Assembly: GCA_019359015.1 (NCBI GenBank)
Contig: JAHHID010000027.1
Location: 1 to 64,000 of the forward strand
Reading direction: 5' to 3'
From: Spirirestis rafaelensis WJT71-NPBG6
GTDB taxonomy: Bacteria > Cyanobacteriota > Cyanobacteriia > Cyanobacteriales > Nostocaceae
Length of the DNA stretch: 64,000 nucleotides
Shown here one piece after another: positions 22,761-37,039 of the stretch. Below the pieces are notes generated by a model. That model was not told the origin of the DNA, did no database searches, and was given only the letters and a program-made list of their open reading frames with translations. Made by a program: the position numbers and the translations under genes. The first letter of the stretch is position 1. Each line of letters begins with the position of its first letter.

Positions 22761-22911
22761 TAGGACTTACGCAAGCGTCACAATATAAGGTCAACTGGCA
22801 CATATATTTCAATTTGCCGTAAATGCTTGTAAGCATTGATTTATAAACCTTAGAGCCATATTAATTCTATGTGACAGTTTTCAGATAAATGTGCCAGTTG
22901 CGTAAGTCCTG
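22761..22911 (+). mobile_element. 151-bp MITE, copy 1
   Basis: A non-coding element with 13-base perfect terminal inverted repeats (aggacttacgcaa at the left, ttgcgtaagtcct at the right), each preceded or followed by one more element base. It is flanked by a 5-base direct repeat AACTA (22756-22760 and 22912-22916), the expected target-site duplication. An identical copy in reverse orientation is at 34641-34791. No transposase is in the window, so it must be mobilised in trans. It ends just after the stop of the Uma2 gene that follows on the minus strand. Confidence 0.92.
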
Positions 22912-29845: not shown

Positions 29846-29873
29846 CTAACTGATCAACTTACCGTTTTGAACT

Positions 29874-30653
29874 TTAAATTGCTTCCAAAATATGCACACT
29901 AGTGCTATCAACCATATAAACAAAACCATGCTCATTAACAAAGCGTTCATATAATTCTTGTAAACTAACAACGAGTTGCTGCTGCATTATTCCATTACGA
30001 GGAACGTAAGAATAACTCATAGTACGACCAATTAGCCCAGTTAAGTCTAATTCTTGCCGATGAACAAAAGTATGTTCGGTTATGTTAATAAAATGGAGAC
30101 TTGCTAATATTGGTTTTATAGACTTAATCCGCTCCTGTACTGGACCACTATTCGATGCTGCACGTATTAAGTGGTTATATTCACCAGTAAAAGGATCTTC
30201 TTGAGCGCGGTGATTCCACACTACAGCTAACCGTCCTGATGGTTTCAAAATGCGATGGAACTCTGATAAAGTTAGTTCTGGGTTAAACCAATGAAAAGCT
30301 TGAAAACTAGTTACTAAATCTACCGATGCATCAGCTAAGTTAGTAACTTCTGCTGTTCCATCTCGAAATTCAACTAATGGATGTGGTTCAGCCACTTCTC
30401 TCATCGCTGCATTTGGTTCAACAGCAATGACGCTAACTCCGCGTTCACCTAACAACCGCGAGGAAATACCAGTACCCGCACCAATATCAGCTGCTAAAAG
30501 TTGCGTCGGTGGTGCTAACCCTTCCAAGATAATATCAATTGCTGCGGCTGGGTAGCTTGGTCGATAGTTTACATAATCCGCTGCTCTGTCAGAGAATCGG
30601 GTTAGTGGATTGAGGGTATATAGGGGTGTTGTTTCCGGGTTCGTTTGGCTCAT
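29874..30653 (-). CDS. class I SAM-dependent methyltransferase
   Basis: A 259-residue methyltransferase with the Rossmann-type SAM domain in the first 160 residues: motif I AADIGAGTGISSRLL, the acidic VIAVEPNAAM, the adenine-contacting FRDGTAEVTNLAD and motif IV-like VDLVTSFQAFHWFN. The C-terminal part (LTGLIGRTMSYSYVP) resembles the small-molecule or trans-aconitate-type enzymes rather than RNA or protein methylases. The substrate is unknown. It is read away from the histidine kinase, with a 240-base divergent region that holds an inverted-repeat element. Confidence 0.88.
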   Translation of the reverse strand: MSQTNPETTPLYTLNPLTRFSDRAADYVNYRPSYPAAAIDIILEGLAPPTQLLAADIGAGTGISSRLLGERGVSVIAVEPNAAMREVAEPHPLVEFRDGTAEVTNLADASVDLVTSFQAFHWFNPELTLSEFHRILKPSGRLAVVWNHRAQEDPFTGEYNHLIRAASNSGPVQERIKSIKPILASLHFINITEHTFVHRQELDLTGLIGRTMSYSYVPRNGIMQQQLVVSLQELYERFVNEHGFVYMVDSTSVHILEAI

Positions 30654-33664: not shown

Positions 33665-34702
33665 ATGGTGAGTGTAATAGACAGCGAAAAATTATCTGAA
33701 CAAGTTTCTAATAGTTTCCAGAATGCAAAATACTTTTTGCATGAAAAGACTGGCAAGACATTTTACTCTATAACTGAATTAACTAATAAATCTCTCAGCA
33801 CTGCGTCAGAAACAGCTGAAAAGGCGAACAATTATTTAAACGAAAATGCTGGTAGATCAGTTAGTACCGCCACTGCGGCAACTGGTAGAACTGTTAATAA
33901 AGTTGCTGAAGTTACGGACAAGGCAAAAGGCTCTTTAAGTGAAGCAGCAGCCAAAGTAAGCGACATAGTAGCTGAAAAGACTAGCAAAGCTATTTATACT
34001 GTTACAGAAACCGCTGAACAGACTAAAGATTCATTGACTCAAACCGCAGTAAAAGCAGTTGATAATGTTAGCCTAGCAAGTAGTAAAGCGGTCAATAGCA
34101 TAAGTGAAAGTGCCAAGCAGGCGGAAAATTCAATAGTAGGAACGTTTGAAACAAGTAAGAATTCTCTAGAAGATACTATTCAAAAAGCAGAAAAAGTCAG
34201 TGCCGTAGCTTCCACAGCAATTGAAAATGCTGTTAATGATTTCATAAATCATCGATTGGATACACTAAAAATTTGGATTGATGATCATCCAACAATCTCC
34301 TGGACAATTAAATCACTAATATGGGGAGTTAATCACCCGATCTATAGCATAGTCATAATACTGTTAATTATTTTTCTTGTGTGGCAATTTTTTAAAGCCT
34401 TCAGTCGTTTGATTGAGAAAGGTTTATTAGTCACACTAATTGCCCCTTTCAAATTGGTTCAATCCTTATTCAAATTCAGCTTTAAACCCTTAAACATTTT
34501 TACAGGCAATTCCACTTCTGCCTTAACCTCGCAGCCAAACAACGAGCGACTAGCAAAACTTTTAACCAGGCTCGAAACAATTAAACAGGAGCAAAACGAG
34601 ATTCTACAGCAGATTACAGCTTTAGTCTCATCAAATAAATCAGGACTTACGCAACTGGCACATTTATCTGAAAACTGTCACATAGAATTAATATGGCTCT
34701 AA
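33665..34702 (+). CDS. long helical single-pass membrane protein with MITE-encoded C-terminus
   Basis: A 345-residue hypothetical protein from ATG at 33665 (an in-frame TTG is 57 bases upstream). Residues 15-190 are Ala/Ser/Thr/Lys-rich amphipathic 11-residue-like repeats (TAEKANNYL, VTDKAKGSLSEAA, TAEQTKDSL), like apolipoprotein or LEA-type helices. Then comes a membrane segment near 226-246 (HPIYSIVIILLIIFLVW) and a short coiled coil (LAKLLTRLETIKQEQNEIL). The final SGLTQLAHLSENCHIELIWL and the stop lie inside MITE copy 2; without it the gene would end at TAA right after VSSNK. Function unknown; a membrane-linked stress or scaffolding protein is possible. Confidence 0.65.
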   Translation: MVSVIDSEKLSEQVSNSFQNAKYFLHEKTGKTFYSITELTNKSLSTASETAEKANNYLNENAGRSVSTATAATGRTVNKVAEVTDKAKGSLSEAAAKVSDIVAEKTSKAIYTVTETAEQTKDSLTQTAVKAVDNVSLASSKAVNSISESAKQAENSIVGTFETSKNSLEDTIQKAEKVSAVASTAIENAVNDFINHRLDTLKIWIDDHPTISWTIKSLIWGVNHPIYSIVIILLIIFLVWQFFKAFSRLIEKGLLVTLIAPFKLVQSLFKFSFKPLNIFTGNSTSALTSQPNNERLAKLLTRLETIKQEQNEILQQITALVSSNKSGLTQLAHLSENCHIELIWL

Positions 34703-34791
34703 GGTTTATAAATCAATGCTTACAAGCATTTACGGCAAATTGAAATATATGTGCCAGTTGACCTTATATTGTGACGCTTGCGTAAGTCCTA
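34641..34791 (-). mobile_element. 151-bp MITE, copy 2
   Basis: Reverse-oriented copy of the element at 22761-22911, identical base for base as far as I can read. It is flanked by the 5-base direct repeat TAAAT (34636-34640 and 34792-34796). It is inserted exactly within the stop codon of the helical membrane protein: removing the element and one TAAAT restores AAT AAA TAA. The insertion adds 20 codons and a new TAA to that gene. Confidence 0.93.
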
Positions 34792-34908
34792 TAAATAACT
34801 TCTTCCTCCTCCACACTCAATACGGTTCGGATAAGCCTTCTTTCTCTCCCCCTGCTTGCCTCAACAGATAACTTTCCTAAGCGAACCGTATGCCTCCACA
34901 CTTGCAAC

Positions 34909-34941
34909 AAAAAAACAGCCGCCTCCACCAGGAGACGACTG
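34909..34941 (-). terminator. intrinsic terminator of groES-groEL
   Basis: On the minus strand, cagtcgtctcc-tggt-ggaggcggctg forms an 11-base-pair stem with two G-U pairs, followed at once by seven T residues. It starts 28 bases after the groEL stop and is a textbook Rho-independent terminator. Confidence 0.9.
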
Positions 34942-34968
34942 CTTTCAAAAATAGGGGACTATGAAATC

Positions 34969-36612
<1,644 letters not shown>

Positions 36613-36727: not shown

Positions 36728-37039
36728 CTAACTAACCACCGCTAAAATATCTTTTTCTGAAAGCAGGACATACTCGTCAGTGCCGAGTTTGATGTCGGTA
36801 CCAGCGTACTTAGAGTACAGCACCTTGTCACCGACCTTTACATCCAACGCCTGACGGCCACCGTCATCTTTGAGCTTGCCATCACCGATAGCAACCACTT
36901 CGCCTACTTGAGGCTTTTCTTTGGCTGTGTCGGGCAAATACAGACCACCTGCGGTCTTTTCTTCAGAGGCGCTCACTTTTACAAAAACGCGATCGCCCAA
37001 AGGTTTTACAGTAGAAACGCTTAGAGATACAGCTGCCAT
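36728..37039 (-). CDS. groES: co-chaperonin GroES
   Basis: 10-kDa lid of the chaperonin, 103 residues. It has [11 protein letters not shown], the mobile loop [20 protein letters not shown] and the C-terminal [16 protein letters not shown]. It is the first gene of the groESL operon, with a CIRCE operator 20 bases upstream of its start. Confidence 0.98.

Follow-up and report, generated by a model that had tools for sequence, protein, structure and literature searches.

Does an open reading frame (ORF) that ends inside a repeat still end where its ancestor did, or has a mobile element displaced its stop codon? This question is raised by a gene of Spirirestis rafaelensis that lies in the stretch of 64,000 nucleotides analyzed here (the window). 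In the list of ORFs, the entry starting at 33665 finishes in VSSNKSGLTQLAHLSENCHIELIWL; the lengthened frame reads ...VSSNK, continues with a tail that lies almost entirely in a short repeated element, and stops within that element (Table 1). Judged by eye, the encoded protein is repetitive in its N-terminal part, is charged in its C-terminal part, and has a hydrophobic segment; no family of Pfam or NCBIfam matched it at the cut-off. A preliminary description had proposed that a MITE sits inside the stop codon, that the ancestral protein ended at ...NK, and that the insertion moved the stop to 34700-34702, adding 20 codons. Direct reading and the ORF list agreed on the displaced stop and the 20 codons, and the interval 34636-34796 turned out to be exactly the element plus both of its flanking duplications. 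The upstream TAAAT copy ends at the first base of the old TAA, and scripted deletion of the element together with one TAAAT restored ...SSNK followed by a stop.

Table 1. Coordinates of the ORF, the inserted element, and neighboring features, counted from the first nucleotide of the window.
Feature	Coordinates	Strand	Basis
ORF, 345 aa (325 aa before the insertion), start codon ATG at 33665	33665-34702	+	Direct reading and ORF list
New coding tail SGLTQLAHLSENCHIELIWL and new stop codon TAA (34700-34702)	34640-34702	+	Direct reading, ORF list, scripted removal
TAAAT, upstream copy of the target-site duplication; shares its final T with the start of the original TAA stop	34636-34640	+	
MITE, 151 bp, CAGGACTTACGCAA...TTGCGTAAGTCCTA; first base C34641, last base A34791	34641-34791	+	
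TAAAT, downstream copy of the target-site duplication; its final T plus AA (34797-34798) is what is left of the old stop	34792-34796	+	
Second MITE copy, identical, duplication TAGTT	22761-22911	-	DNA search and flank check
Hairpin of 16 pairs including part of a run of seven T, outside the MITE, likely groEL terminator	34911-34946	-	RNA fold
groEL, 545 aa, convergent with the ORF	34969-36606	-	Name read from sequence
groES	36728-37039		Name read from sequence

The ancestral state was read from relatives that lack the element. The nearest named relative found for the window was Hassallia byssoidea, whose orthologue is also the closest (83% amino acid identity); it lacks the element and ends in ...ILQQITALVSSNK*, with TAA followed by CTTCTC, its empty site being 5'-TCATCAAACAAATAACTTC and its protein ending in ...SSNK*, as had been proposed for the ancestor. 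The next closest orthologue (70% identity), from a metagenome-assembled genome of Nostoc desertorum, is likewise free of the element and ends in ...SSTR*, with TAA followed by CTGCTC (empty site 5'-TCATCAACTAGATAACTGC). Both thus stop at exactly the codon that was hit in the window. A search for homologues gave a match in 40 of 59 genomes (own genome included), and 31 C-terminal loci were compared: that of N. desertorum, two of H. byssoidea (L012 and L098), and 28 further ones. The two H. byssoidea sequences agree and were counted as one locus, and L021, which runs into masked sequence, was left out, leaving 29 different readable relatives. The preliminary description had named orthologues that lack the MITE and still carry a similar 20-residue tail as the observation that would speak against it; there was none among these 29. 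Most of them are distant (28 to 45% identity) and end 0 to 33 residues beyond the insertion point, in unrelated sequence. That the tail is ancestral and was lost by the relatives is therefore refuted by the empty sites, and we give this reading practically no credence: the two close orthologues have their stop at the homologous codon, that of Hassallia can be aligned with the window just past the stop (over ∼20 bp, the next few hundred bases being unalignable), and the tail consists of MITE sequence delimited by a target-site duplication.

The element itself has the properties of a MITE, as had been claimed. It is short, contains stops in all six frames, and carries no transposase gene. Its terminal inverted repeats of 14 bp (CAGGACTTACGCAA and TTGCGTAAGTCCTA) are complementary at 13 of 14 bp, with the outermost base mismatched. 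A DNA search of its own genome (7.07 Mb in 143 contigs) gave at least 40 matches, the fortieth being a copy without a left end; this number is a lower bound, as 40 of 94 first-look candidates were scored. A core pattern allowing up to 3 mismatches matched 36 times. We examined 39 dispersed full copies with both ends, every one of them 151 bp long. Their ends are CA...TA in 38 cases and CA...TG in one; 33 are identical to the consensus, one differs at a single base, one at 7 bases, and four at 17. Exact 5-bp duplications flank 37 of the 39 (two have none), and 36 different duplications occur among these 37, with A or T at 150 of 185 positions. The constant length and the near-identity of 39 copies and the exact duplications at 37 of them exclude chance, and by these sequence characters the element is to be classed as a MITE, i.e., a non-autonomous DDE element. 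Folded as RNA, it reaches -46.2 kcal/mol, compared to a mean of -27.8 kcal/mol for shuffled sequences (z = -5.5); covariance models of Rfam gave no match at E ≤ 1 between 34500 and 35000. The second copy in the window lies 11 bp past the stop of an open frame of 246 codons and leaves that frame intact.

Relatives of the MITE were present at E ≤ 1e-15 in at least 21 of 217 genomes of the family, its own included (at least 20 of the 216 others); since few candidates were scored per genome, this is a lower bound. The best relative outside its own genome was 94% identical among the candidates scored. The element appears to be old in the family and, given that 33 of 39 copies are identical, to have been amplified recently in this strain. 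Neither a plasmid collection nor a phage collection contained a match to the MITE; these searches gave no sign of spread on plasmids or phages.

In a draft genome, a junction with a sequence that is present about 40 times might also be a product of misassembly, and some of the 143 contigs do break off in a longer repeat whose ends match those of the MITE. We consider this very unlikely for the site described here. The ORF and the convergent groEL, which flank the element, keep their order and orientation in the two relatives: a groEL-like frame runs toward the orthologue in each empty-site locus. These frames begin 0.7 and 0.9 kb beyond the site and have 532 of 545 and 515 of 544 identical residues. 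Moreover, the flanking TAAAT copies match, and a chimera would not yield matching duplications at 37 of 39 copies. The gene upstream of the ORF in the window (a sensor kinase by its sequence) is also upstream in the Hassallia locus, and was not found beside the N. desertorum orthologue. Taken together, insertion into the stop codon with lengthening of the ORF is almost certainly a real event, as far as sequence comparison can establish it. A recently active, non-autonomous MITE entered after base 1 of the TAA stop with duplication of TAAAT. Ribosomes would then read the remaining T with CA of the element as serine, followed by 19 more MITE codons up to a TAA inside the element, so that the predicted product has 345 instead of 325 aa.

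The insertion presumably survived because an addition at the C terminus is tolerable in this protein, as suggested by the distant relatives, which vary by 0 to 33 residues beyond the same point; the ORF family as a whole seems to tolerate C-terminal change. It is improbable that the tail has been kept for a function, either because its hydrophobic end (IELIWL) acts as a degradation or membrane signal or because the hairpin of the MITE protects the mRNA or forms its end. The C terminus is indeed hydrophobic by eye and the RNA fold strong, and an adaptive role of changed C termini is discussed as possible for the QMITEs of Coxiella (PMC5896051). Against this, there is no sign of selection: 32 other copies, inserted at many kinds of sites, have exactly the same sequence, and the same tail ends a truncated ORF elsewhere in the genome (L059), where it looks like debris.

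What moved the MITE was approached through its ends. A complete insertion sequence (IS) of 1,302 bp on contig C82 of the same genome (L087) has CAGGACTTACGCAACTGTCACA at both ends and is flanked by the 5-bp duplication TTCAG; its transposase of 337 aa matches NF049921 (IS701 family) at 423 bits (cut-off, 250). The left 22 bp of the MITE are identical to the ends of this IS at 21 of 22 positions. On contig C74, an end beside a fragment of an IS701 transposase, which is 72% identical to the C82 transposase, reads CAGGACTTACGCAACTGGCACA, i.e., the first 22 bp of the MITE, and an IS of H. byssoidea (C219) carries the identical sequence. The MITE and the C82 IS have only their ends in common, and the right end of the MITE matches less well (TAGGACTTACGCAAGCGTCACA); the resemblance to an IS of the same genome is thus clear at the left end and weaker at the right. 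The 5-bp duplication of the IS was read from the one complete copy on C82, as the flanks of the C219 IS do not match (AGAAA versus TAATT) and its transposase frame looks broken. IS701 itself makes a 4-bp duplication. From these end sequences, the MITE was probably moved in trans by a transposase of the IS701 type that acts on these shared terminal repeats.

The genome also contains a multi-copy element whose first 20 bp, at both ends, are those of the MITE, and a more doubtful possibility is that this unassembled element, rather than an IS701-type IS, was the mover. Nine left and eight right ends, in the pieces fetched, have 20 to 22 bp of the MITE's left end, and 3 of the 72 left/right pairs share matching 5-bp flanks (ATGAA, AAGGA, and ATCAT). 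On the other hand, its interior is missing from the assembly, and an H. byssoidea relative of its right end belongs to a unit of 150 bp that has both ends; the multi-copy element may therefore carry no transposase. It was traced via a related IS4-family sequence and other genomes, and its interior was not recovered by this route; on the left side, a stretch of its interior is similar to the end of an IS4-family element. Its ends lie at contig ends, e.g., of C5, C11, C36, C48, C74, C80, C114, and C123 (L090 and L149-L162), and it seems to cause several of the contig breaks. An IS701-type transposase remains our preferred candidate for the mover.

An insertion adds 151 + 5 = 156 bp and thus preserves the frame, yet all six frames of the consensus are closed. 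In-frame internal insertion of the type known from Rickettsia palindromic elements was ruled out by these stops. Because all six frames are closed, any gene read into the MITE either stops at once or gains one of five fixed tails. From the left end, these are QDLRNWHIYLKTVT, RTYATGTFI, or GLTQLAHLSENCHIELIWL after a few junction residues; reading into the right end gives an immediate stop or, again after a few junction residues, RTYASVTI or GLTQASQYKVNWHIYFNLP. The tails apply to the consensus element and differ in diverged copies. Truncated ORFs of at least 100 codons that end in the MITE include those for a PAS/GAF/HisKA kinase (L069), an AAA ATPase (L056), an APH-type phosphotransferase (L052), a protein with pentapeptide repeats (L060), and a DUF3854 protein (L066). 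Among ten MITE-ended ORFs of this size compared with Pfam, three (L048, L059, and L062) had no match at E ≤ 1e-4. At L066 (contig C75), two MITE copies lie ∼1.2 kb apart: one breaks a long ORF with the DUF3854 domain, and the other, which has no target duplication, terminates the same reading frame further along.

A second stop codon in the same genome was hit in a CLC chloride-channel gene (L061; contig C67, MITE at 29851-30001). Here, the element lies inside a TGA stop and extends the frame, counted stop to stop, from 456 codons to 466, adding the 10 residues CRTYATGTFI. A search for the empty site of this gene in 12 genomes, its own included, yielded nothing closer than distant homologues, with identities of up to 34% outside its own genome. 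At a third site (L072; contig C137, copy in minus orientation), the duplication TCAAA holds the whole stop, so that the stop is kept and the protein unchanged; the neighboring gene there reads like a Y-family DNA polymerase from its sequence.

Cuts inside a stop codon therefore account for 2 of 37 duplication-bearing insertions (L050, the site in the window, and L061), and a third duplication (L072) contains a stop that stays intact. Two copies without duplication were left out of the 37, one at L066 in minus orientation, which seemed to end at a stop, and one at L064 in plus orientation. Expected numbers were derived from 464 kb of the genome (20 stretches of 20 kb and the window) with a simple ORF caller and were weighted by the base composition of the duplications. 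They amounted to 0.11 stop cuts (P = 0.005) and 0.38 stop overlaps (P = 0.007); with gene interiors left out (n = 37), expectations rose to 0.36 cuts (P = 0.05) and 1.29 overlaps (P = 0.14). Sixteen of the 37 insertions, the three stop-overlapping sites included, lie within ORFs of at least 100 aa, a count that does not include L048 and L056, where the ORFs extend beyond the 1.5-kb flanks; the share of gene interiors expected at the observed base composition is about 70%. AT-rich targets and the loss of gene-breaking insertions largely account for the excess at stop codons. We do not claim targeting of stop codons: the hypothesis was formed post hoc, the ORF caller is crude, and the excess is marginal without gene interiors. 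It is also quite improbable that the MITE hits AT-rich gene ends so often that C termini are systematically rewritten, with unrelated proteins of one strain sharing a few MITE-encoded tails, some of them translated and relevant to protein level.

Among the papers listed by literature searches, none dealt with this MITE. Nezha is another cyanobacterial MITE, and the insertion sequences of Anabaena PCC 7120 were reportedly studied by Wolk and colleagues in 2010. The following comparisons draw on excerpts of the articles cited. Closely similar events are already in print, and the case described here is a well-documented further instance. In the Erwinia carotovora amidase ECA3499, a MITE-like RU-1 repeat located at the 3' end seems to have eliminated the usual stop, giving 496 residues compared to about 461 in other species (Delihas 2007, PMC2759123); as in the window, the protein is lengthened, but RU-1 belongs to another element family and host, whereas the present case is resolved base by base through an exact duplication and an empty site. 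Insertions of QMITE1 and QMITE2 at gene 3' ends change C termini in Coxiella burnetii, where 33 C-terminal residues of EnhC of strain Dugway are presumably MITE encoded and all affected functional annotated genes were struck at their 3' ends (PMC5896051); these are other element families, and many copies of the MITE studied here, in contrast, are located within ORFs. MITEAba12 of Acinetobacter (113 bp, 9-bp duplication, proposed parent ISAba12) is similar in being short, having stops in six frames, being able to fuse to a neighboring coding sequence, and most likely being moved by a co-resident IS with matching ends, but its example is a truncation rather than an extension (PMC6382973). The MITEs of Anabaena sp. 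90, a member of the Nostocales, are likewise small multi-copy cyanobacterial elements, 132 of 147 being intergenic and 15 breaking ORFs; their authors found no IS with matching inverted repeats, and stop-codon insertion is not among the cases described in the excerpt (PMC3542288). Rickettsia palindromic elements, finally, are about 150 bp long, lie in coding sequences, and add an element-encoded peptide; they are described as in-frame translational fusions, called not unusual in a 2024 review, whereas the MITE in the window is closed in six frames (PMC10969869).

Existing knowledge of MITEs is unchanged by the event in the window. It is an unusually clean case: the insertion point is known to the base, two named relatives preserve the empty site, and a single genome holds a burst of identical copies. 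As several ORFs in this strain have such tails in common, they could serve as a natural test set for the effects of sudden C-terminal tails on proteins. For annotators, it is a warning that the end of an ORF may be mobile-element sequence.

Downstream of the insertion, the hairpin between the MITE and groEL folds with -25.1 kcal/mol on the groEL strand (short flanks included) and is likely the groEL terminator. The preliminary description had also suggested that the MITE may alter the end of the transcript; a consensus scan of 34400-35100 listed no promoter and no terminator, this hairpin included. A perfect 10-bp inverted repeat (ATACGGTTCG/CGAACCGTAT; 34820-34829 and 34882-34891) also lies between the ORF and groEL, outside the MITE.
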